DNA of 64,000 nt from Desulfosoma sp. Lineage in GTDB: Bacteria; Desulfobacterota; Syntrophobacteria; Syntrophobacterales; DSM-9756. The notes beneath the pieces are model-generated. The model did no database searches, was not told the origin of the DNA, and saw only the letters and a program-made list of their open reading frames with translations. The stretch's first letter is position 1. Every line of letters starts with the position of its first letter. This document shows positions 4,458 to 46,933 of the stretch, piece by piece. Location: positions 87,364-151,363 of the forward strand of contig JBBFKY010000009.1 of the NCBI GenBank assembly GCA_037481875.1, read 5' to 3'. A program made the translations under genes and the position numbers.

Positions 4458-5110
4458 AACGGCAGAGGGTGCTGGGATTCCCAGCGCCCTTCATAAAGCC
4501 CGATGGTGCCGTGAAAGTGAAAGGTGCACGAAAGAATTCGAAGGCCTGCGGCCTCAAGCAGTGCTTGGGTGGCGCCTCGCTTCATAAAGTCGCGAAAAGC
4601 TTTGTAATGGTTTCGACCCGCCATACATTCCACCATGTTCAAAAGGTTCATAAACATTCGAGCAGACCCGTGGGTGGGGCAAGCATAGTCCAGCACGAAG
4701 ACAGTGCCGCCAGGTTTTAAGACACGATACCCTTCGGCCAGCATGGCAAGGCGTTTTCCATGCGGTTTTTCATGAAGGGAAAGAGAATAGATGAGGCCGT
4801 CAAATACCTTGGCGGGAAAAGGAAGGAGGCAACCGTTGCCTCGAACAAAAAATCCTGCGTGCCGCACCTCGCGCCCAACACGTCGAAGCATAGGCCACGA
4901 AATATCGATCCCCACGGCGGCTGATCCAGCAGCTCGAAGCCTGATCACTTGTGTGCCCGTGCCACAGCCCATATCAAGGATTCTGGAAAGGTTGTGCTTT
5001 TGAACCGCCTCGGTGACACTCTGGCGACAGGAGTGAAGCGCTCTGTCCACCCAGGGATAGAGGACGGCAATCAGGGCGTAGTCATTCCCGGTTCGATCAG
5101 CTCTTTTCAT
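4454..5110 (-). CDS. class I SAM-dependent methyltransferase
   Basis: A 218-aa methyltransferase. It shows the canonical SAM loop ILDMGCGTGTQVIRL (residues ~43-57), an acidic strand-2 end (VGIDIS) and the YRVLKPGGTVFVLDYACP region. This resembles UbiE/ArsM-type small-molecule methyltransferases, but the substrate is not identifiable. Its stop overlaps the cooS-like stop by a few bases tail to tail, and its start overlaps the end of the upstream IF-2-like gene by 14 bp, so the two minus-strand genes are probably cotranscribed. Confidence 0.8.
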   Translation of the reverse strand: MKRADRTGNDYALIAVLYPWVDRALHSCRQSVTEAVQKHNLSRILDMGCGTGTQVIRLRAAGSAAVGIDISWPMLRRVGREVRHAGFFVRGNGCLLPFPAKVFDGLIYSLSLHEKPHGKRLAMLAEGYRVLKPGGTVFVLDYACPTHGSARMFMNLLNMVECMAGRNHYKAFRDFMKRGATQALLEAAGLRILSCTFHFHGTIGLYEGRWESQHPLPF

Positions 5111-5789
5111 ACACTTCCACCAGATCTCCCAAGTGAGCCTCTTTCCAGTCGGGAATTTTAATGCCCACCTGCTTGCCTTTGCCGGCTTCTTTGACGGGGT
5201 TTCGATCGATTTGCATGGATTGAATCACCCCTGCATACACCGGTCCCATGGCGGAAAAGATACGAAAGGGAGCCCCCAGTCGAAAAATGCCCTCTGTGAT
5301 CTCACATCCGATAATGATGCCGTGCCGGCTGCTCTTGAAAAGGGCAATGATTTTGCCTTGCCCAAGAATCTTTTCCGGCTCTGCGGTTTGGCTCTGAACT
5401 TGTCTGGTCTGAAAAATGCGAGCGGTGACGGCGTCCACCAGATCATGAATGACATCAAAGAGAAAAATTTCCACTCCCATGTCTCGAGCGATTGCCGCCA
5501 CCTTGGGACCCAAATCCACACCCAATGCCAGCACCAGGCGGCTTCCGGTAGCCGCCATCAGGATATCGGACTTGGAGACCGTACCCACGCCTCGATGAAT
5601 GATGCGAATGGAGTGGCCTTTCGCGGTGAGGTTTTCCAAGGCCTTTTCGATGGCTTCACAGGTTCCCACCGTATCGGCCTTGATCACCACTTCAAGGGTC
5701 TCTTTCGACGAAAGAGTCTTTTTCGGGGTTGAGAGGCTTTCTTTTGAAATTTTGGACTTGGAAGACTTCTGTTCTTTGGGGTCGGCCAT
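5097..5789 (-). CDS. stand-alone translation initiation factor IF-2 C-terminal-like protein
   Basis: A 230-aa protein that corresponds only to the C-terminal half of IF-2. After a basic, Ser/Lys-rich leader comes the domain III signature (VVIKADTVGTCEAIEKAL, then IIHRGVGTVSKSDILMAA). Next come the C1/C2 beta-barrel segments, with GCEITEGIFRLG where IF-2 usually has GC.V..G.. and the closing GDLVEVYE. There is no GTPase domain. The ATG at 5789 was chosen because CTGGAG precedes it; the ATG at 5825 has no ribosome-binding site. In IF-2 the C2 domain binds formyl-Met-tRNA, so this could be a tRNA- or ribosome-binding paralogue. It precedes a methyltransferase gene that overlaps it by 14 bp. Similar orphan proteins may exist in related genomes, but that was not checked. 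Confidence 0.75.
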   Translation of the reverse strand: MADPKEQKSSKSKISKESLSTPKKTLSSKETLEVVIKADTVGTCEAIEKALENLTAKGHSIRIIHRGVGTVSKSDILMAATGSRLVLALGVDLGPKVAAIARDMGVEIFLFDVIHDLVDAVTARIFQTRQVQSQTAEPEKILGQGKIIALFKSSRHGIIIGCEITEGIFRLGAPFRIFSAMGPVYAGVIQSMQIDRNPVKEAGKGKQVGIKIPDWKEAHLGDLVEVYEKS

Positions 5790-6039
5790 GTTTGTGCTCC
5801 AGGTGTTGGGATCGTCGTAGGCCATGGGGCTTTGAAAGCTTTTTCCAGAAAACTCGCGGCTTGGCTTATGGTTCCGCTAAGGCGTTTTTAACTTCGATTT
5901 GTGTAGAGTCAATCAATGGAGGCAAGGATGTCGGGAAAGTCAACAAAATTTTGCGGTGCATAGGCACTGGATATTCAGAAAGAATTCGAGAGGTCGAAAT
6001 CCAGCGTTCGCTTGGGAACCTGAATCTATCACGTTATTC

Positions 6040-6570
6040 GCCCTGCAGGGGCGTACCGGTGTGTGCGCCCCTACGAAAGGGTTTTGCAGGCGTACGGGTA
6101 TTTCACGCAAAACCCAGAATGTGTTGGAAAGGGCCCATGGTGCATCGGTCGGTGGACGGCACGCAGAGTGTTTTCGGAAATGTCACCGATATACCCAGGA
6201 GTGCCTCTGTCGGGGTTGATCGATGTGTCAGCCCCTGAACCTGCGCCAAGGGGCTGACTTTCGGGCGGACACGTCGGTCCGCCCCTCGGAATCCCCAAAT
6301 CGATCCCGTGTGTAGACCTGCAGGAAATCCCCGCTGTTTCGTGCCACGGGAAACCCAGAAAAGCCGCAGTCGGCATCAAAAACCCTGTAGGGGCCAACCC
6401 ATGTGTCCGCCCCAAATGCGCCGCCACGGCCTTAGTGCCCAGGCCCATCCACCAATTCCCGCCCACGGACCATAAGGTAGGGGCGGACCGATGTGTCCGC
6501 CCCAAAACCCACCGGGAACGGGAAGTCCAGGGCGCATACATCGGTGCGCCTCTTCAGAAAAGGCAAATGG
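6040..6570. repeat. intergenic cluster of GGGCGGAC palindromes (composite unit copy C, reverse orientation)
   Basis: The gene-free stretch 5790-6650 holds at least five palindromes. Near-perfect stems are 6048-6071, 6227-6258 (10-bp arms GTCAGCCCCT/AGGGGCTGAC), 6263-6284 (GGGCGGAC, 6-nt loop, GTCCGCCC) and 6480-6503 (9-bp arms GGGGCGGAC/GTCCGCCCC, 6-nt loop). A weaker copy lies at 6390-6413. Bases ~6225-6410 are the reverse complement of the units at ~13181-13360 and ~16483-16665, including the linker AAACCCAGAAAAGCCGCAGT. All reading frames across it look like shadows. No promoter or RNA gene is evident. Confidence 0.85.
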
Positions 6571-6650
6571 GTCTTTTGGGACGGGGTGCTAGGCGCTTTC
6601 CCGTCCCTTATGCCGGCATTGTCGCGTCCTTTACGCCCTTGATGTGTCAG

Positions 6651-8048
6651 CTAGGGGCCGAACACCTCTTTGGGACGTTCCGTGCTTCCCGTGGCGTTTG
6701 GAAAATCGGTGGCCTTATAAGCCTTTTGGTTCGTTTCCAGCAGATGACGTGCCTCTTCCATGAAATTGTTGTAACGCTTTTTGCATTCGTAAAAACCATG
6801 CCACCAGGAATAATCGGGCGCCATCATGGCCGCCCCCATACGGGCTCGCCGTCCTTCGTGGTGCCACAGCTCGTAGTATTCCACTTCCAATCGCTCGTCA
6901 AAAAACTTGGTTTTGTCCAGAAGGCCTTTAGCGTAAAGATCATCCAACATCGCCTTGGCCGGTTTGAAATAAACCTGGTTGTACTCTTCTATCACCTTGT
7001 CAAGTTTTACATAGTGATCTTGAACCCAGGTCTTGCCGTGGCATTGCATGCAGATAACCTGCATTTTCTCCCTTTCCACCTGCCAGTTCGTCTGAGCCGG
7101 AAAGGCCGCAAATTCGGAAGGGCGAATGGTCAAGGGCGCCTGGGTTTCCCAGGAGAGGCGTTCCGTCACGTCATGGGAAGTGAGCACAGTGCCGGCCCCT
7201 GACATGTGGCAGGATGCGCAGGTAGGGGCGCGATAATCCACACCCGGAGTCCATGTGCCCCCAGCGGCGGTCCAATTGTATTGATCGCCGAAGGCGGTGT
7301 AGATGTCTCCGTGCTTGGACTCCATGTAAATCTCAATTTGCGGATGGTCCGGACCCAGATGACACTGGCCGCAGGCTTCGGGTTTGCGAGCTTCCATGAC
7401 CGAAAAACGATGGCGGGTATGACAGCTGGTGCAGCTCCCTTTACTCCCGTCCAGGTTGACCCTTCCCACGCCCACGTTAGGCCAGGTGGCCGGATCCAGG
7501 ACGCCGTCCTTAATACGAAGCACCGTGCCGTGACAATGGAAACAGCCGGCTTCCCGTTCGGTGTCGCTGTTCATGCCCAACTGAAGCCATGGGTCGATTT
7601 TCCACATGATTTCCACCGTATTGGCGTGTTTGCTTCGACTGTACTGTTTGGCTTCGTCCGGATGGCATCGGGAACAATCCTTAGGGGTCACCACAGCCGC
7701 CACTGGAACCCGGTATTCTTTGTTCCCATAAGGCACATCGTTTCTTTCGTATTGCTTGTAATGCTCTTGGCTTACGTCCGGATCAAACGCTTCCGCTTGA
7801 TGGCAGTCCAGGCACGTAATGTTGGCACTGGCGTGGCGGCTATAAGCCCAATCGGCGAAAATACCAGGACTCTCCCTGCGGTGGCACTCAAGGCAAGCGA
7901 CAGCTTCCTTGGGCATGCTGCGTTCGATGCGGAATTCCTTGACCTTGGGCGTATTCAACGCCGTTTGAGCTAAAGCCACGGCCCCAAGGACGACGGCCAT
8001 CAACAAAGCACCTGCCAAAACCTTTCCCAGCCGATGTCCTTCCTTCAC
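6651..8048 (-). CDS. octaheme c-type cytochrome of the hydroxylamine oxidoreductase (HAO/eHao) family
   Basis: A 465-aa protein. The start is a GTG at 8048 with AAAGGAGG seven bases upstream. A Sec signal segment (LGKVLAGALLMAVVLGAVALA) directs it to the periplasm. Eight CxxCH haem motifs follow in order: CLECH, CLDCH, CSRCH, CFHCH, CTSCH, CGQCH, CASCH, CMQCH. The C-terminal third is haem-free and helical with a WWHGFYE segment, as in octaheme HAO-family reductases. With an NrfH-like quinol dehydrogenase 39 bases upstream, it most resembles the eHao/NrfH pairing thought to reduce nitrite (to hydroxylamine or ammonium) rather than oxidise hydroxylamine. Whether the haem-crosslinking tyrosine of true HAO is present cannot be settled without an alignment. 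Other octaheme reductases are alternatives. Confidence 0.85.
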   Translation of the reverse strand: MKEGHRLGKVLAGALLMAVVLGAVALAQTALNTPKVKEFRIERSMPKEAVACLECHRRESPGIFADWAYSRHASANITCLDCHQAEAFDPDVSQEHYKQYERNDVPYGNKEYRVPVAAVVTPKDCSRCHPDEAKQYSRSKHANTVEIMWKIDPWLQLGMNSDTEREAGCFHCHGTVLRIKDGVLDPATWPNVGVGRVNLDGSKGSCTSCHTRHRFSVMEARKPEACGQCHLGPDHPQIEIYMESKHGDIYTAFGDQYNWTAAGGTWTPGVDYRAPTCASCHMSGAGTVLTSHDVTERLSWETQAPLTIRPSEFAAFPAQTNWQVEREKMQVICMQCHGKTWVQDHYVKLDKVIEEYNQVYFKPAKAMLDDLYAKGLLDKTKFFDERLEVEYYELWHHEGRRARMGAAMMAPDYSWWHGFYECKKRYNNFMEEARHLLETNQKAYKATDFPNATGSTERPKEVFGP

Positions 8049-37033: not shown

Positions 37034-37825
37034 CTAGCGAGGGCCGGTGGGAAGAAAACTTTCTTCACCCAGCATGGTAAACGGTGATTTGCCGTCCGGA
37101 ACACCTGTCTTGTAGTCAAAGATTCCTTCCACCAAACTGTTCACATGCTTGTAGAGCACCCTCAAGGGGATGTTCGACGGGCATGTTTCCTCACACATTC
37201 CACAATCAATGCATCGACCGGCCATGTGCACCGCTCGAACCAAATGAAAGGATGTATCCGGAGGCAGTTTTCCTGCGGGAATGAGTTCCTTGTGTTCCAG
37301 GCTGCATTCGGTGCAGAAGCACACAGGGCACACGTCTCGGCATCCATAACAGCGAATGCAGCGGTTGAAATGGCCCAGCCACCAGGCCAGCCTTTCTGTG
37401 TCGGGCATGGCTTCCAGTTCCTGAAGCCGCCGGCTCTGTGACACGGGCTTGGGAGCTTCCCCATAATCCAAGTGATCCGGGTAGGGCTTGGAACACTCGC
37501 ACGAAAAGGCGAGATCCTGCGGGCAAGCATGCCCTACGATCACCACCTTGTCAGGTTGAAGCTGGTTCCATTTGAAGAGTTCGTAAAGAGACCTTTCCTC
37601 GCAGCCACGAACCAGCACACCGAAAGTTTTGTCCGGATATTGTCGTGCCTGGGCCAACAGAAGCTTAGTGACGGGATAACGAGCCTTGAACGGCTGCCAC
37701 GTTTCCAAGGTGTTCAGGTCGTCCTTGGTAAAAACAGCGGGGAAAGGCAGCCCGTGGACCGTTTTGTAAGCGATAAAGGCGTCCACGCGACCTTCTTCCA
37801 GTAATTGTCGAACTTTGGTCTTCAT
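37034..37825 (-). CDS. 4Fe-4S dicluster protein of the HdrA/MvhD operon
   Basis: A 263-aa protein, starting at ATG 37825 (MKTKVRQLLEEGRVDAFIAYK) or at 37834. The first ~120 residues resemble the FrhB/FdhB-like module (FGVLVRGCEERSLYELFKWNQL; VIVGHACPQDL). Two ferredoxin motifs follow: C-x2-C-x2-C-x3-CP (CIRCYGCRDVCP, with CFCTEC close by) and CIDCGMCEETCP near residue 215. It is the last gene of the bifurcation operon, 27-36 bases after mvhD, and probably accepts electrons from or donates electrons to the HdrA-MvhD module in the cytoplasm. Confidence 0.75.
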   Translation of the reverse strand: MKTKVRQLLEEGRVDAFIAYKTVHGLPFPAVFTKDDLNTLETWQPFKARYPVTKLLLAQARQYPDKTFGVLVRGCEERSLYELFKWNQLQPDKVVIVGHACPQDLAFSCECSKPYPDHLDYGEAPKPVSQSRRLQELEAMPDTERLAWWLGHFNRCIRCYGCRDVCPVCFCTECSLEHKELIPAGKLPPDTSFHLVRAVHMAGRCIDCGMCEETCPSNIPLRVLYKHVNSLVEGIFDYKTGVPDGKSPFTMLGEESFLPTGPR

Positions 37826-37860
37826 GAGATCCATCCTGTGCGCTGAACGTGTGGTATCGT

Positions 37861-38301
37861 CTAAAGGCCCAATGCCAGCCGCGGACTCGCTTCAAAGGAC
37901 GGCGCAGGTCCCAAGGAGCGTATTTTCTCGGTAAAATCCCGCACCACTTCAGCGAATTTGATGCCTTCGGCCGAGGAGATCCATTCCAGACGGAACCTTT
38001 CCGGATTGTAGCCGGAAAATCGAATCAGTTCCTGCACGAATTTCATGCGTTTCAAGGTCATGTAGTTCCCTTTGAGATAGTGGCAGTCGCCGATATGGCA
38101 TCCTGCCACCAGAACACCGTCGGCACCACGTTGAAAGGCATGAATGACGTGATGAGGGGACACGGTGCCGGAACACATCACGCGCACGACACGCACGTTC
38201 GGCGGGTATTGAAACCGACTCACCCCCGCCAGGTCCGCCCCGGCGTAGCTGCACCAGTTGCACAAGATTGCCAAAATTCTCGGTTCAAAGCGTTCCGCCA
38301 T
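37861..38301 (-). CDS. mvhD: MvhD/FrhD-type [2Fe-2S] hydrogenase iron-sulfur subunit
   Basis: A 146-aa protein of the MvhD family. The cysteine signature is complete: ILCNWCSYAGADLAG, VMCSGTVSPHHVIHAFQRGADGV and VAGCHIGDCHYLKGN. In methanogens MvhD carries a [2Fe-2S] cluster that passes electrons from hydrogenase to HdrA. In sulfate reducers it is found with HdrA and dehydrogenases without any hydrogenase, as here. It lies 22 bases after hdrA. Confidence 0.93.
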   Translation of the reverse strand: MAERFEPRILAILCNWCSYAGADLAGVSRFQYPPNVRVVRVMCSGTVSPHHVIHAFQRGADGVLVAGCHIGDCHYLKGNYMTLKRMKFVQELIRFSGYNPERFRLEWISSAEGIKFAEVVRDFTEKIRSLGPAPSFEASPRLALGL

Positions 38302-38323: not shown

Positions 38324-41300
38324 CTAGGCGCTGAGGGCCTCGTCGATTTGGGTATAGAGCTGCAGGTGCGAAAATCCCAGCAGCGTGATGGCTTCCGAAG
38401 GACATGTGGCCGCACAGGTGCCGCAGCCTTTGCACAGAGCCTGGTTCACTTCGCATTTAGCTTCCTGTTCCAGGTAACTGATGGCACCGAAAGGACAGCA
38501 CTGCACACAACCCTGACAGCCGCAGCACAGATCCTTGTTGACCACCGCCACCACACCTCCTGCCAGGATCGAGTCCTTGGCCAGCACGGTGGCGGCTCGA
38601 GCCGCTGCCGCTTTCGCCTGCGCGATGCATTCTTCGGTCGGCTTCGGGAAATGAGCCAAGCCGGCGATAAAGACACCGTCCGTGGCGAAATCCACGGGGC
38701 GCAGTTTGGCGTGGGCTTCAAGGAAGAATCCATCGGCATTGAGAGGTACCTTGAACATTTTGGCCAGTTCGTCGGCTTCCGAGGTGCGCGTGACGATGGC
38801 GGAAGCCAGAGTGAGAATATCCGGTTTCAGGATGATCGGCCGTCGGAGAATATGATCCACGACAGTCACCGTGAGTGTTCCATCGGGGGCCACCTGGACC
38901 TGGGGTTTGTTTTCCAGGTCGAATCGAATGAAGAGCACACCCCGAGCTCGAGCTTCCTTGTAGAGATTCTCTCTGAGTCCGAAGGTGCGAATATCGCGGT
39001 ACAAAACGTAAACATCCAGATCCGGATTGAGTTTTTTCAACCGCAAAGCGTTTTCGATGGAATGGCTGCAGCACACTCGACTGCAATACGGTCTTTCAGG
39101 TTCCCGGGATCCAACGCATTGGATAAACACGGCCGAATTGGCATTGGTGATGCGAGGATCTCTTTGGCTGATAGCTTGATCCAGATCCAGGTTCAGAAAG
39201 ATCCGATCGCTCTGTCCATAACCGTATTCCGTAGGTTTCAGAGAGTGGGCGCCGATGGCCAAAATGGCGACCCCGTGATCGATTTCCTTGAGGGAACCGC
39301 CCACGTCCAGCACCGTATGGAAGTTCCCAACAAAGCCCTGAACATCGCGAATCTGGGCGTTGGTGAGCACCGTGATGCGTGGATGGTCAATGACCCTTTG
39401 AATGAGTTCATCCAAATACGGGGCGATGGGCTGACCGTCCCAGGTGGAATAGAGCTTACGGCCATGACCGCCCAGAACATCTTTGCGTTCCACAAGTGTC
39501 ACCGGATAACCCTGATCGGCCAAGGCCAAAGCGGCCGTCATGCCGGCGATACCCCCGCCGACCACGAGTCCCGATTTCGTCACGTTTAGTTGAATTTCAC
39601 CGAGCGGTTGCTGCAAAGCCACCTTGGCCACCGCCATTCGAACCATGTCTTTGGCTTTTTCCGTGGCGGCTTCCGGCTCGTTCATGTGCACCCAGGAACC
39701 CTGGTTTCGAATGTTGGCCATTTCAAAGAGATACTTGTTCAGTCCGGCCTGTTTCAGGGTTTCCTGGAAAAGAGGTTCGTGGGTTCTTGGAGAGCAGGCA
39801 GCCACAACGATGCGATTCAGGTTGTGTTCCTGAATGACCTGCTTCATTTTGTCCTGTGTATCCTGAGCGCAGGTGAACAGATTGCGCTCCACATAAACCA
39901 CGGAAGGTAGTGTTTCCGCGTACCGGGCCACGGCTTCCACGTCAATGACACCGGCGATGTTGACACCGCAGTGGCAGACAAAGACGCCCACACGAGGTTC
40001 TTCGGCTGCCACATCCTTTTCGGTAAGAACCGGCGGTTTTTGGGTGAGGGTGTTGCGGGCCGGCGCCAGCAAGGCTCCTGAATCGGCGGCCGCTGCCGAA
40101 GCTTCCATGACGGATAAAGGAATGTCTTTGGGGCTTTGAAAAACACCGCACACATAAATGCCGGTTCGGGATGTTTGCACGGGTTCAAAGGGTGACGTGG
40201 CCGCAAAGCGACCGTCTCCGATGTCAATCCCCAAGGATTCGGCCAGTTTCAAAGTGTCTTTGGAAACCTGAAGTCCCACGGAAAGAACCACCAGGTTGAA
40301 CACTTCTTCCACCAGCGTTCCATCTTCGGCAACGTATTGAATGGCCAGATCATCCGTACCGGGTACGGGATCCACGCTGTGCACGCGGGAACGAATAAAG
40401 CGCACTCCTTTTTCCCGTTCCGCCCTTTCATAGTACTTGTCGAAATCCTTGCCCGGCGTGCGCATGTCCATAAAGAAGATCGCCGTATCCAAACCTTCAC
40501 CCGCGTGTTCCTTGGCGATAACCGCTTCCTTAATGGCGTACATGCAACAGACGGCGGAGCAATAACCATTGTCGCAGTGGTGAATGTCCCGGGAACCAAC
40601 GCACTGAAGCCAGGCAATCTTTTTGGGTTCTTCATGGTCACTGGGACGCACCAGATGGCCTTCGAACGGTCCTGATGAGGAAAGAATCCGTTCAAATTCC
40701 ATAGAAGTGATCACATTAGGATGTTTGGTGTAATTGTAAGTATCGTAGATTTTGGGATCGAACGGTTCAAATCCAGGAGCCAGAATGATGCTGCCCACCT
40801 CGAGAGTGAATTCCCGGTCCTTATCGTCGAAATTCACCGCTTGGGTCGGGCAGAATTTTTCGCAGGCGCGGCATTTGCCTTTTTCAAAGTAGATACAGTG
40901 ATCCTTGTCAATCACATACTTTAAGGGGACGGCCTGGGGAAACTTGACATAGGCCGCCTTGCGCTTGCCAAGGCCTGCGTTGTATTCGTCATCGACCTTG
41001 CGAGGACATTTTTCCGCGCAGGTGCCGCAGGCGATACACTTGTCCATGTCGATGTAGCGGGCTTTTTGGAAAATAGTCGCCTGAAAGTGACCCGCTTCAC
41101 CCTTGACGTCTTTAACTTCGGAAAGCGTGTGAATTTGAATGTTCAGATGCCGGCCGACCTCGACCAGTTTGGGTGACAGAATTCACATGGCGCAGTCATC
41201 GGTGGGAAATGTTTTATCCAGCATACTCATGGCCCCACCGATGGCCGAAGTCTTTTCAATCAGATGGACGAAATATCCCGAATCGGCCAAATCCAAGGCT

Positions 41301-41383
41301 GCCTGGACGCCGGCGATGCCGCCCCCCACCACCATGACGGATCCGATAGGGTTTGAAGAGCTCAATTGCGTCGCATTGCTCAT
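38324..41383 (-). CDS. hdrA: selenocysteine-containing HdrA-like flavoprotein (in-frame UGA)
   Basis: One frame of 1020 codons is interrupted only by UGA at 41183-41185 (residue 67). The N-terminal FAD domain ([20 protein letters not shown], then [20 protein letters not shown]) runs into [19 protein letters not shown], which matches the HdrA DC-x2-(C/U)-IL(S/T)PK motif where other HdrA proteins have Cys or Sec. After the UGA the frame is open and continues at once with [12 protein letters not shown] and CRACEKFCP clusters. A second HdrA module follows: [33 protein letters not shown] and [19 protein letters not shown]. Two C-terminal clusters ([24 protein letters not shown]) end the 1019-aa protein. 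HdrA carries the bifurcating FAD. Automated callers would split or truncate it. Confidence 0.92.
41150..41185 (-). promoter_or_regulatory. bacterial SECIS element with UGA selenocysteine codon of hdrA
   Basis: On the minus strand UGA (41185-41183) is followed after 15 nt by CUGGUC (41167-41162), loop GAGGUC (41161-41156) and GGCCGG (41155-41150). The arms form a 6-bp stem with two G-U pairs. The apical loop contains GGU, the feature SelB recognises in E. coli fdhF, at nearly the same distance from the UGA (24-26 nt). Confidence 0.7.
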
Positions 41384-41407
41384 GATGTTCTCTCCCTTGT
41401 GCGCTCT

Positions 41408-42889
41408 TTATTCCGATTTCTCTTCGTCCTTTACGGGACTGGGAGGAATAATCTTCTTTTGTCCGTTGCTCAGGAACTCATGCATGGAGGCGGCGGCGAT
41501 GCGGCCTTCACCCATGGCGCTGATGACGGTGGCGCCTCCCGAGACGATATCGCCTCCAGCCCAGACTCGAGCCTTAGACGTGCGACCCCTTTCGTCGATC
41601 ACGACAGTGCCCCAACGCGTGACATTGAGGTCGGGTGTGGTTGAGGGGATGAGCGGGTTGGGGGAGGTTCCCAAAGAGACCACAACGGTGTCCACATCCA
41701 GAATGTATTCACTGCCGGGAATCGGTACCGGACGCCGCCGCCCGCTTTCGTCAGGTTCGGTGAGCCTCATGCGAATGAGTTCCATGGCCGCCACATTGTT
41801 TCGTCCATCACTCAAAAAGGCCGTGGGGTTGCACAGAAAATGGAATTCGATTCCTTCTTCTTCAGCGTTTTCCACTTCTTCAAGCCGTGCCGGCATTTCG
41901 GCACGCGTGCGTCGGTAGATCACGTACACTTCCTGGGCTCCCAGACGCACGGCACATCGTGCGGCGTCCATGGCCACGTTGCCTCCTCCGATAACCGCCA
42001 CCTTTTTGCCCATCTTAATAGGCGTGGCATATTCCGGATACCGGTAGGCTTTCATTAAGTTGGTGCGTGTAAGGAACTCATTGGCCGAATAGACCATATT
42101 CAGGTTTTCACCGGGAACCCCCATAAATTTCGGCAGACCGGCTCCGGGGGCCAAATACACGGCATCGTAATCGGTTCTGAGCAGTTCATCGAGGCTGTAG
42201 TTGATCCCGATGACTGTGTTCAACCGAAGATCCACGCCCAAGGATTGCACATACTGGACTTCCCTTTGAACAATCTCCTTGGGAAGCCGAAATTCTGGAA
42301 TGCCGTACATGAGCACGCCGCCGGCCACGTGCAAGGCTTCAAAGAGGACCACCTTATGGCCGAGAATGGCCAGGTCCGAAGCCACGGTCAGTCCGGAAGG
42401 ACCGGATCCCACGACAGCCACCTTCTTGCCCGTGGATGGGGCCATTTCGGGCATGGTCGGAGCCCCCTGGGTTCTTTCCCAATCGGCGATGAAGCGTTCC
42501 AATCGCCCGATAGCTATCGGGGCTCCTTTTTTGTTCAGTGTACAAGCCTCTTCGCATTGAAGTTCCTGGGGACACACTCGGCCGCAGACGCCGGGAAGCG
42601 AGGTTTTGCGTTTGAGAATCTTAGCGGCTTCTTCAATGTCTTCACGCTGCAAAGCTGCGATAAAATCCGGAATGTCGATATTGACCGGACAGCCTTGCTG
42701 GCACGGTCGCTTCTTACACTGAATGCACCGGGATGCTTCTTCCTTGGCCAATTCCCACGTGTATCCCAAAGCGACCTCGTCGAAGTTATGCCGGCGCTCA
42801 TGTTCCGACTGTTTGGGCATCTCGACCCGGTTCAGATTAAGTTTGGGTTTCTTTTCCGAGGCGCCCTTGGTTTGTTTTTGCTCCGTCAT
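41408..42889 (-). CDS. NfnB/SudA-type NAD(P)H-dependent oxidoreductase (GltD-like)
   Basis: A 493-aa flavoprotein of the glutamate-synthase-small-subunit family. The N-terminal Fe-S region has CIQCKKRPCQQGCP and CGRCP-type CGRVCPQELQCEEAC motifs. An FAD fold follows (KVAVVGSGPSGLTVASDLAILGHKVVLFE, GGVLMYGIPEFRLPKEIV). The NAD(P)-binding fold is KVAVIGGGNVAMDAARCAVRLGA with YRRTRAEMPA. Directly behind an NfnA-like gene, it is best read as NfnB/SudA, the large subunit of NADH-dependent ferredoxin:NADP oxidoreductase or sulfide dehydrogenase, rather than glutamate synthase; no large glutamate synthase gene is nearby. HdrA starts 24 bases downstream. Confidence 0.88.
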   Translation of the reverse strand: MTEQKQTKGASEKKPKLNLNRVEMPKQSEHERRHNFDEVALGYTWELAKEEASRCIQCKKRPCQQGCPVNIDIPDFIAALQREDIEEAAKILKRKTSLPGVCGRVCPQELQCEEACTLNKKGAPIAIGRLERFIADWERTQGAPTMPEMAPSTGKKVAVVGSGPSGLTVASDLAILGHKVVLFEALHVAGGVLMYGIPEFRLPKEIVQREVQYVQSLGVDLRLNTVIGINYSLDELLRTDYDAVYLAPGAGLPKFMGVPGENLNMVYSANEFLTRTNLMKAYRYPEYATPIKMGKKVAVIGGGNVAMDAARCAVRLGAQEVYVIYRRTRAEMPARLEEVENAEEEGIEFHFLCNPTAFLSDGRNNVAAMELIRMRLTEPDESGRRRPVPIPGSEYILDVDTVVVSLGTSPNPLIPSTTPDLNVTRWGTVVIDERGRTSKARVWAGGDIVSGGATVISAMGEGRIAAASMHEFLSNGQKKIIPPSPVKDEEKSE

Positions 42890-42979: not shown

Positions 42980-43825
42980 CTACCACTGAGAACATCCGCG
43001 GCATTGAAAACCCTGCTGCAAAATGCTCTCATCGGCGTAGGTGCAGCGGCGTGCCATGAGCACTTCCCAGCCGTCTACTTCGTGGCCGTCAAATTCCGGG
43101 CCGTGCACGCAAGCGAATCGATTGGTGCGGCCCACACTCAAGCGACAGGCACCACACATGCCCGTGCCGTCCACCATCACCGGAGTCAAATGCACCATGG
43201 TTTTGATGGCATAAGGGCGTGTCATTTCTGAAAGGACGCGCATGAGGCACAAGGAACACATGGCGATCACGCGGTCGATACGGCGCTTTGGGTGCTGCTG
43301 CAGCAGTTTCCGCATGGCCACCGTGGTGCTTTCTATCATGCCATTGCCGTGAGTGCCCAAGGCCAGGATGAGGTTATCGCTGAGTTCTTCCAAAGGCTTT
43401 TGGCCAAAGAGGCGTTCTGAATCGGGGGCCTGCACGATGGTGGTCAGCGTGTTCCCATGCTCCTTTAAGGCCTTCAAAATAGGCACCATGGCAGCGATTC
43501 CGTACCCGCTGAGCACCGAGACCACATGGCCGTACTGGCCCACTTCCGCCGGACGGCCCAACGGTCCGATAAAACTGAGCAAGGTGTCTCCAGGCTGCAG
43601 GGTTGCCAACTGCTGCGTTGTTTTTCCCACCTCGATGAATACAAAGTCCACGGTGCCGGCTTCGGCGTTCCAGTCGCTGATGGTGAAGGGAACCCGCTCC
43701 CCTTTTTCGTCGATGATGAGAATCACGAACTGGCCCGGCTTGGCCTTTTCCGCCACCACCGGAGCCTGTACGCGAAGCCGGTGCACTCTGGGAGCCAAAA
43801 CTTCGTGATCGACAATCGAATACAT
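42980..43825 (-). CDS. NfnA/SudB-type ferredoxin-NADP reductase subunit
   Basis: A 281-aa protein with an FNR-like FAD domain at the N-terminus (LRVQAPVVAEKAKPGQFVILII, RVPFTISDW) and an NAD-binding core (VVSVLSGYGIAAMVPILKAL). The C-terminal [2Fe-2S] region is MVDGTGMCGACRLSVG...FACVHGPEFDGHEVDGWE, the near-invariant end of NfnA/SudB. It starts a few bases after the NuoG-like gene and is followed by the NfnB-like gene about 90 bases later. The Nfn pair bifurcates electrons from NADPH to NAD and ferredoxin; here it likely links pyridine nucleotides to the HdrA module. Confidence 0.88.
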   Translation of the reverse strand: MYSIVDHEVLAPRVHRLRVQAPVVAEKAKPGQFVILIIDEKGERVPFTISDWNAEAGTVDFVFIEVGKTTQQLATLQPGDTLLSFIGPLGRPAEVGQYGHVVSVLSGYGIAAMVPILKALKEHGNTLTTIVQAPDSERLFGQKPLEELSDNLILALGTHGNGMIESTTVAMRKLLQQHPKRRIDRVIAMCSLCLMRVLSEMTRPYAIKTMVHLTPVMVDGTGMCGACRLSVGRTNRFACVHGPEFDGHEVDGWEVLMARRCTYADESILQQGFQCRGCSQW

Positions 43826-43827
43826 GG

Positions 43828-46431
43828 CTATCTCTTCTCCACTTTTGCGGCCATCGTTGTGCCCGGAAGATGGGTCCCGCCGAGAACGCTTTGAAGTCGT
43901 TCCGCCGGCACGGCCACAAGCTTCAGGGGAAGATGGATGTTCAACGCCAAGCGTCCTGTGATTGCCCCCCCTTCAAAGACCACCGCCACCGTGTCTCCCG
44001 GCATGATTTCCAGGCGATAGGCATCCGTGGGGTTCATTTCAATCTCGCCGTCACAGGCCATCACCGCACGGGATTCCGGTGCCAAAAGAGGACCGAAAAA
44101 GGATGGGTACAGGCTTTCCTTGGCCGTGAGATGCAACGGAAATTCCTGACGCTTTTCCGCCGAAACTTCCGCCTTGACAGGCTGTGAAGGGCTCCAAGGC
44201 TTGTACACAGGAGGCGTGTCGGCAAAGAGAATCGGTGTACCTTCGTGATCCAAGGAAGGGCACGGCACTTGAACCGCCTCGTAACGGGCTCGACTGCGAT
44301 CCACTCCTGCGTACGCTTCAAGCCGGCTTCCCAGGGACTTGAACACCATGCCGGGTTCCTCTTCACTCAGTGGGGAACCGCCAAGGAAACGGGACCAAGC
44401 CGCCGCGGTCTGAAGCACCGTTCGAGATCCAGCGCCTGGGGTCAAGGCCTTCTCGGTCCACTGAACGCGGCGTTCCCCGTTGGTCAGAGAACCGTCTTTT
44501 TCCAAAATGGGCGTCAAAGGCAGCAGGACATGCGCCCCGACCGTTTCAGGGGGAGGCACCACGTCCTGGACCACTAGAAAGTCCAGAGGCTTGGCCAGAT
44601 TCAAAAGCGGTTGCCAACAGGCGTCATCGTAGGATTCCGCAGCCACATAGGCGGCCTTGATCCGTCCGGATGTCAAAGCCTCCATGACGGTAGTGTCCCA
44701 TCCCAAATCTCGAGCCCCCTGCATGTTGCTGGTGCCGAAGAGAGGCCAAAAGCCGCCGCCTTGTTTCCCAAAGCTGCCTTTGGCAAAGCCTAAAGTCATG
44801 AGGGCTCGCGTGAGATCGGCCACATCGAAGGCTTGAAGCACCCCCAAACCGGCCAAAACGGCCACGGTGTCCCGCGCCGCCAGCAGACATCCGGCTTCCA
44901 CCAGTTGCTCTTCATGAATGCCGGTGCATCTTGAAACTGTTTCCACGTCATAAGGGCCGGTCAGGTCTCTAAGGGCCGCCAGGAGGTCTGAACCGGCGTT
45001 TTTGTCCGTTCCTTTTTCGTCCAAAATGATGCGCACAAGGCCCAGGACCAAAACCGTTTCGGATCCCGGAACATACCGAAGGTGCACATGCGCATACCTG
45101 GCGACGGCCACATCATAAGGATTGGCCACCACGAGCTTGGCTCCTTTGAGCACCGCCTGACGGATGGCTACGCCCGCAATAGGCTGAGAAGCCGCCGGAT
45201 TGAGTCCCATGGCAAAGATAGCCGGCGCCTGGGCCAAGTCCTGTAAACTGTTGGTGGCTGCGGCTGTGCCCAGAAGTTCTCGAGCCGCTTTTTCAAAAAC
45301 CACCAGACCCGCAGGAGCCAAAAGACCTACGTTGTCGGTTTTGAAATATTCCCGAGCCAGACGATTCAGAACACAAAGTTCTTCATTGGTCAACCGGCCG
45401 TCTGTAAGCACGGCGATTTGATCCGGTTGGTAGCTTCGGAATTTTTCGGCGGCATACTGCAGGGCTTCATCCCAAGAAAGACTCTTCCAGCCGCCTCCGT
45501 TCTTGACGGCCGGTTGCCGAATCCTTTCAGAACGGGCCACGTAGCGCTTGAGGAGAAATCGGCCCTGCACACAGGCCTGACCTTTGTTGCTGGGGCCTTC
45601 CGGACTGGGTTTGATCTGAAGGATGGTTTCATCGGGGGTTTTTTCCAGCATCAAGCGGCAGCCGGCGCTACATACGGGACAAATGGCCGTGGACCAATGG
45701 GTTTCCAACTCCTTCTTGTAGAGGTCCGTTACAATGGTCGTTAAAGATTGGCAGACGGCTTCGATGGCGGGGCGTGTGTCCTGATGAAAGTCCGATAGAT
45801 TTTCTCGAAGCGCCCCCACGGGACACACATCCACACAGGCGCCGCAAAACTGACATCCCGACTCTTCCAAGGACCGTCCAAAGGGAGTGCCTACGGACTG
45901 ACGCCCGTCTTTGGATTCACGAAATACGATGGTGCGAGCGCCCCGCAGTTCGTGGCAGACGCGCACACAGCGCCCGCAACGCACACACAGGCTGTAGTCT
46001 CTCTCAAAATAGGAGCCGCCTGGCAATGGTTCCGGACGGCTGATGTCGGGGGCAGGGTAGGGGAAATCAATCCCTAAAGCTGCCACCAATTGCTGCAATT
46101 CACAGGTGCCGTTTCGAGGACACCCCAGACAGTGCCGCGGATGATCCTGAAGAATCAGCTGCAGCATCTCCCGGCGAAAGTCCAAGACCTTGCTCGTCTG
46201 GGTCTGCACACGAATCCCCTCCATCACAGGCGTCGTGCATGCCGCCGGCAGCCCTCGCTGCCCTTCGATTTCAACAGCGCACAAACGGCACGATCCACTG
46301 GGCTCCAAGGCCGGGTGAAAACATAACCGAGGAATATAAATCCCGGCCTCATCCGCGGCCTGAAGAATCGTCTGGCCCGCCTTTGCCTTGACTTGCTGGT
46401 CGTTGATCCAAATGTTGACGTCGCTCATCAT
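43828..46431 (-). CDS. NuoG-like 2Fe-2S/4Fe-4S molybdopterin-fold protein
   Basis: An 867-aa protein; the ATG at 46431 (or 46428) is preceded by AGGGG. Its N-terminal [2Fe-2S] domain has PRLCFHPALEPSGSCRLC. The His-ligated cluster is HCLGCPRNGTCELQ, followed by CVRCGRCVRVC and CQFCGACVDVCP (residues ~1-230). The MopB part starts with CPVCSAGCRLML. At the position where formate dehydrogenases carry the Mo ligand (Cys or Sec before H) this protein reads LLAPAGLVVFEK, so it is probably not a formate dehydrogenase but an electron-wire subunit like NuoG. It is the first gene of the six-gene operon, with no NuoE or NuoF. Confidence 0.82.
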   Translation of the reverse strand: MMSDVNIWINDQQVKAKAGQTILQAADEAGIYIPRLCFHPALEPSGSCRLCAVEIEGQRGLPAACTTPVMEGIRVQTQTSKVLDFRREMLQLILQDHPRHCLGCPRNGTCELQQLVAALGIDFPYPAPDISRPEPLPGGSYFERDYSLCVRCGRCVRVCHELRGARTIVFRESKDGRQSVGTPFGRSLEESGCQFCGACVDVCPVGALRENLSDFHQDTRPAIEAVCQSLTTIVTDLYKKELETHWSTAICPVCSAGCRLMLEKTPDETILQIKPSPEGPSNKGQACVQGRFLLKRYVARSERIRQPAVKNGGGWKSLSWDEALQYAAEKFRSYQPDQIAVLTDGRLTNEELCVLNRLAREYFKTDNVGLLAPAGLVVFEKAARELLGTAAATNSLQDLAQAPAIFAMGLNPAASQPIAGVAIRQAVLKGAKLVVANPYDVAVARYAHVHLRYVPGSETVLVLGLVRIILDEKGTDKNAGSDLLAALRDLTGPYDVETVSRCTGIHEEQLVEAGCLLAARDTVAVLAGLGVLQAFDVADLTRALMTLGFAKGSFGKQGGGFWPLFGTSNMQGARDLGWDTTVMEALTSGRIKAAYVAAESYDDACWQPLLNLAKPLDFLVVQDVVPPPETVGAHVLLPLTPILEKDGSLTNGERRVQWTEKALTPGAGSRTVLQTAAAWSRFLGGSPLSEEEPGMVFKSLGSRLEAYAGVDRSRARYEAVQVPCPSLDHEGTPILFADTPPVYKPWSPSQPVKAEVSAEKRQEFPLHLTAKESLYPSFFGPLLAPESRAVMACDGEIEMNPTDAYRLEIMPGDTVAVVFEGGAITGRLALNIHLPLKLVAVPAERLQSVLGGTHLPGTTMAAKVEKR

Positions 46432-46933
46432 GACCCCTGATTCTGTCGTTTTACCGTTCTCGGCGCCGGTCAAGAGAAAAAAATCACATTATGGGCCAAA
46501 AAAACAATCCAAAACACTAAGTTAAGAACCATGGGCGAAGTCGCCACACCCGGCTTTGGACCGACCTACCTTAAATGGAGAAGGGTCGCTTGTCAACCAC
46601 TTGCATCATGATTGTGTAGGTCGGCTCAAGGTAAAGTGTCTATGGGCAACCGCATTGTGCCTTGCGTCGGGCGGGTTTCTTCGATAAAGGAAAGCACGGT
46701 TGTTCGGCGCTTGGCGCCGGACGAACTTGACCCTGGGAGCGCGGGGGCGTCCCGCTCGCCCGAAAAGCGGGGCGCAGCTCCTCGTTCCCTGCAAAAGAGA
46801 CAGTTTCTGGCATGTAAGGGCGAGGCGTCGGCTCGTCCTTCCGTTGAAACGGCATAAGTTCCGTTGGTATGGTAAGTTCTCGAACACGCGCCCGAAGTAG
46901 CCGTGGGAGCGGACCTGGACGGTGGAGGCAAGC
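46432..46933. other. divergent intergenic region with GC-rich inverted repeat
   Basis: This stretch lies between the bifurcation operon (minus) and the phosphorylase gene (plus). It must hold promoters for both, but no clear -35/-10 pair was found. At 46702-46726 there is an inverted repeat (GTTCG, GCGC-TTG-GCGC inner arms, CGAAC). It is followed by a GC-rich segment to about 46790 with GAGCG...CGCTC symmetry that looks like another dispersed repeat type. Open frames here are shadows. Confidence 0.5.

Follow-up and report, generated by a model that had tools for sequence, protein, structure and literature searches.

Selenocysteine (Sec)-containing HdrA proteins of Deltaproteobacteria were described in 2006, when seven copies were reported from Syntrophobacter fumaroxidans (PMC1794560). 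In 2009, HdrA1, HdrA2 and HdrL of Desulfobacterium autotrophicum HRM2 were described as selenoproteins, with a Sec-HdrA gene next to mvhD (PMC2702500). The present analysis concerns a 64,000-nucleotide (nt) stretch of a Desulfosoma sp. genome (contig JBBFKY010000009.1, positions 87,364 to 151,363; the window), in which a fused hdrA-type gene on the reverse strand carries one in-frame UGA codon. Comparison with its homologues makes it almost certain that this gene encodes a selenoprotein, in which Sec is inserted at residue 67 into a single HdrA polypeptide of 1019 amino acids (aa), an electron-transferring flavoprotein from a bacterium of the sulfate-reducing type. The gene is a further example of the Sec-HdrA type already known in Deltaproteobacteria. 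It shares with the S. fumaroxidans genes the same broad group of organisms and the decoding of UGA through a bacterial selenocysteine insertion sequence (SECIS), but differs from them in sitting with NfnAB-like and NuoG-like genes (PMC1794560). As in HRM2, a sulfate reducer with Sec machinery, the Sec-HdrA gene is followed by mvhD, although the gene neighbourhoods described there differ (PMC2702500).

Conservation of the hairpin downstream of the UGA

The homologue search covered 55 genomes of the class and yielded HdrA-like genes with one internal TGA as well as others without any. Synonymous sites were compared between 58 UGA and 51 cysteine (Cys) copies, for which the region was extracted from the loci. 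Over the hairpin codons (+6 to +11), the pairwise synonymous difference was 0.193 among the UGA copies versus 0.612 among the Cys copies; the corresponding values were 0.447 and 0.451 in the upstream flank, and 0.625 and 0.586 in the downstream flank. The observed contrast between UGA and Cys copies was reached in none of 100 label shuffles, which ignore the relatedness of the copies. The constraint over the hairpin acts on the RNA and not on the protein. For counting the hairpins, extra loci from the genome collection were added, and distinct copies were scored by a strict hairpin rule. A hairpin with a GGU-bearing loop was present in 88 of 92 UGA homologues versus 2 of 89 Cys homologues, and only two loop offsets from the UGA occurred among those 88, namely 22 nt in 57 copies and 27 nt in the other 31.

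The codon at position +9 after Sec illustrates how the coding sequence accommodates the two registers. Where valine is encoded there, all 39 UGA copies use GTC and have the hairpin CUGGUCG-AGGU-CGGCCGG, while with Cys at +9 all 18 UGA copies use TGC and have the hairpin GAGUGC-GGUCG-GCACUU, the loop of which lies 5 nt further on. Copies with the LDVGRH motif carry the hairpin GAUGUC-GGUC-GACAUC, also in the second register. In the Cys copies, on the other hand, codons at +9 vary freely. That the same codon position is served by two or more hairpin solutions is a modest addition to the known picture.

At this locus, CUGGUCGAGGUCGGCCGG begins 15 nt past the UGA and folds as a 7-bp stem with the loop AGGU and a folding energy of -10.2 kcal/mol. 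It is within all published limits of bacterial SECIS elements, namely a loop of 3-9 nt, a stem of 4-16 bp, G in loop positions 1-2, a distance of 16-37 nt from the UGA and an energy <= -7.5 (PMC13188914). An Rfam scan of the hairpin region gave no match up to E 5. Several observations weigh against Sec insertion. The hairpin alone has no thermodynamic significance (z -0.23; 80 of 200 shuffled sequences folded equally well), and permitted hairpins were common at unrelated UGAs in a simple SECIS scan of all UGAs of the window, which was dropped as evidence owing to its many spurious matches. Four of the 92 UGA homologues fail the strict hairpin rule, and the actual insertion of Sec is deduced from sequence. 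Unlike the hairpin alone, however, the comparative evidence for a SECIS is far beyond chance, and we regard it as decisive.

One reading frame and the decoding of its UGA

Read on the reverse complement, the gene region comprises 1019 codons in frame 1 with a sole interruption, the UGA at residue 67, which lies in the context TDDCAM-U-ILSPK, where HdrA homologues have Cys at that codon. The 952 open codons on the 3' side of the UGA form by far the longest downstream frame among the window UGAs scanned, which were those with roughly at least 50 open codons on either side. A mechanical open reading frame caller splits the frame at this point, as expected if the UGA were a true stop that separated two genes or marked a pseudogene and a 907-aa protein started at ATG 41047. 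This explanation is extremely improbable, since the homologues read through with Cys at the UGA position, the ATG falls within the ferredoxin insert and lacks a Shine-Dalgarno-like sequence upstream, and the UGA has been retained together with the hairpin in independent genomes. The same UGA occurs in the orthologues of the isolate Desulfacinum infernum and of other genomes. A Desulfosoma sp. metagenome-assembled genome (MAG; L182) has TGT at the Sec position of an uninterrupted gene, and two orthologues with 89-90% identity (L034 of genome G022 and L035 of genome G023) also encode Cys within a single uninterrupted gene; therefore, the two-gene reading is excluded. These data bear out the initial annotation, made from the window sequence, which joined two apparent genes into one frame and placed the UGA where HdrA proteins carry Cys, the latter being confirmed both by the homologues and by the alignment to Cys197 described below. 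The GGU-bearing hairpin that it proposed 15 nt after the UGA is strongly supported by the comparison, with a stem of 7 bp in place of 6 bp. A true stop followed by a separate downstream gene, which it had named as the contrary outcome, was not found in the homologues, those with Cys being uninterrupted.

The Sec machinery was searched for in the window's own genome (3.4 Mb, 99.6% complete). A tRNA-Sec with the anticodon UCA (74.5 bits), SelA (630 bits), SelB (416 bits) and SelD (385 bits) were found, and SelD has its own in-frame UGA within GAGUASK. Thus, all four genes (selA, selB, selC and selD) that the initial annotation had proposed to look for are present, and its main objection, a genome devoid of the machinery, therefore falls. 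The same genome contains five further HdrA-type genes with one in-frame TGA (Table 1) and several other paralogues without it.

The UGA could also be read as Cys by a Sec-like tRNA-Cys (selC*) and a second SelB (SelB*). A second SelB (308 bits) is indeed encoded in this genome, beside a tRNA-Cys of 92 nt that reaches 54 bits when scored as tRNA-Sec, and some selC* tRNAs of Desulfobacterales carry an opal anticodon (PMC7609411). The anticodon here, however, is GCA, which pairs with UGU and UGC and not with UGA, and a normal tRNA-Sec(UCA), SelA and SelD are present. Decoding of the UGA by SelB*/selC* was rejected on account of this anticodon, and its probability is very low. It is worth recording that the tRNA-Cys(GCA), an MvhD-like gene and the second SelB lie together (L133:3651-3742 and 4849-6849; contig C2 of the genome, about 315650-318848), an arrangement that matches the selC*/selB* known from Syntrophobacterales and Desulfobacterales (PMC7609411). 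Four relatives likewise have a second SelB that scores above the family cut-off. For the hdrA-type gene, insertion of Sec remains the preferred reading: the hairpin 22 nt past the UGA would bind SelB, which would deliver Sec-tRNA(UCA), and translation would continue to 1019 aa.

A tree of the orthologous DNA sequences groups the gene of the window's genome (UGA) with the Cys genes of the same-genus genomes G022 and G023; two same-family UGA genomes lie outside that group, and more distant orthologues have Cys. The tree needs at least two Sec/Cys changes. G022 keeps the hairpin sequence with one substitution, by which the energy is weakened from -10.2 to -5.8 kcal/mol, in agreement with a recent Sec-to-Cys change. 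A different HdrA paralogue (L120; G042:C282:12113-12573) has a TGC codon yet an intact hairpin of the second type, which probably survives as a fossil from a Sec codon recently replaced by Cys; among the matches listed for genome G042, none to selC* was strong. Cys genes of other families are already known to keep remnants of SECIS structures (PMC1794560). The fossil hairpins that Sec-to-Cys reversion would have left here are a modest addition.

Domain architecture and the possible role of Sec67

The protein was compared with solved structures using an AlphaFold model (predicted local distance difference test, pLDDT, 80.5). Half 1 (residues 11-442) matched HdrA residues 149-575 (8rwn_A, Z 48.6) and half 2 (461-1011) matched residues 2-644 of 5odc_A (Z 41.5), and the two tandem HdrA-type flavin adenine dinucleotide (FAD) modules noticed in the initial annotation were confirmed. 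Sec67 aligned with Cys197 of solved HdrA (chain residue 147 at query residue 17), and cysteines 386, 399, 403 and 404 of the solved chain aligned with Cys261, 275, 279 and 280 of the fused protein. The C-X(n)-C-XXX-CC cluster motif is repeated in half 2 (Cys756, 767, 771 and 772), and all eight cysteines are invariant. The fold, the FAD motifs, the cluster motif and the inserted and C-terminal ferredoxin domains assign the protein to HdrA. Its scores were below the NCBIfam whole-protein cut-offs (980.7 bits versus 1100 for HdrA2 and 736.9 versus 1400 for HdrA), which is plausibly to be expected of a rearranged fusion.

Each half resembles HdrA of the HdrABC-MvhAGD complex of Methanothermococcus thermolithotrophicus (5ODC) in fold and cluster cysteines, but that dimeric complex has a single HdrA per chain. 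In the fused HdrA3/4 of anaerobic methanotrophic archaea (ANME) and the HdrA of Moorella, there are likewise two halves per chain, one with the Cys197 site and the other with the cluster domain (PMC9012536). Unlike in the ANME fusions, the Cys197-bearing half comes first here, and the residue is Sec. Cys197 is reported to ligate an N-terminal [4Fe-4S] cluster that sits in the partner HdrA and belongs to the ferredoxin output path, and fused HdrAs are reported to show complementary loss of Cys197 and the N-terminal domain (PMC9012536). The protein studied here consists of two complementary HdrA halves, and the polypeptide would most likely serve as its own HdrA pseudo-dimer.

Because Cys197 is described as ligating the partner cluster and the halves show complementary loss, Sec67 of one half may act as a selenolate ligand to the [4Fe-4S] cluster in the N-terminal-type domain of the other half. 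We give an even chance to the proposal that, in a bifurcating enzyme, such a ligand tunes the ferredoxin branch of low potential, and the ligand role, considered by itself, appears about equally balanced. Its derivation from homology and from the published reading of one structure counts against it, and the literature searched yielded nothing relevant on a cluster-ligating Sec in HdrA. Sec67 lies in the FAD module, shortly after the first Rossmann motif, which would also suit a selenoprotein in which Sec67 acted directly at the bifurcating flavin instead of ligating a cluster. This is unlikely, as in the published description the equivalent Cys197 ligates the N-terminal cluster that belongs to the partner HdrA (PMC9012536), and the residue at this position is complementary to the cluster domain within the fused protein. 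The suggestion of the initial annotation that the bifurcating flavin site may be the Sec-bearing one was thus not supported.

Gene cluster and likely function

Six genes form the cluster, and hdrA is the fourth of them (Table 1). The whole cluster is kept in Desulfacinum sp. (L181), the Desulfosoma sp. MAG (L182) and D. infernum DSM 9756 (L201), and the five neighbours of hdrA are 68-96% identical across these loci, which points to an organism probably related to Desulfosoma and Desulfacinum. In a search confined to the cluster, HdrB and HdrC had no match among the six genes, a further difference from the 5ODC complex; therefore, the system is not called a heterodisulfide reductase. The NfnAB-like flavoproteins and the MvhD encoded in the cluster are the probable electron-exchange partners of the fused HdrA, and we infer that its likeliest role is NAD(P)H:ferredoxin-type bifurcation with MvhD.

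Table 1. Positions of the fused hdrA-type gene, its elements and domains, the clustered genes and further TGA-containing HdrA-type genes (window positions unless a contig is given)
Feature	Position	Strand	Remarks
NuoG/formate-dehydrogenase-alpha-like protein	43828..46473	(-)	881 aa
SudB/NfnA-like FAD/NAD-binding subunit	42980..43825	(-)	
GltD/NfnB-like NADPH-dependent flavoprotein	41408..42889	(-)	
GGGAG, Shine-Dalgarno-like	41392..41396	(-)	before ATG 41383; read from sequence
Fused hdrA-type gene	38324..41383	(-)	1019 aa, one in-frame UGA; start ATG at 41383
UGA codon for Sec67	41183..41185	(-)	Cys197 equivalent
SECIS hairpin CUGGUCGAGGUCGGCCGG	41150..41167	(-)	7 bp, loop AGGU; loop begins after 22 nt
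HdrA half 1 (residues 11-442)	40058..41353	(-)	FAD module with inserted ferredoxin; Sec67; without N-terminal cluster domain
HdrA N-terminal cluster domain (residues 461-600)	39584..40003	(-)	invariant Cys470, 472, 505, 530
HdrA half 2 FAD module (residues 604-937)	38573..39574	(-)	without inserted ferredoxin; without Cys at Cys197 position
C-terminal 2[4Fe-4S] ferredoxin domain (residues 944-1011)	38351..38554	(-)	
MvhD/FlpD-type subunit	37861..38301	(-)	Cys-only; gene after hdrA
4Fe-4S protein	37034..37834	(-)	266 aa; same cluster
Further HdrA-type genes with in-frame TGA	C12:24694, C4:34295, C12:68966, C13:58429, C14:26781		own genome

Automatic annotation cuts genes of this kind in two and so misses a chain that is central to an energy-conserving complex. 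The gene set is a clean natural SECIS experiment, with one codon position, two registers and Cys relatives without the hairpin. If Sec is indeed a cluster ligand, these proteins would allow the effect of selenium on an iron-sulfur cluster in electron bifurcation to be addressed directly.
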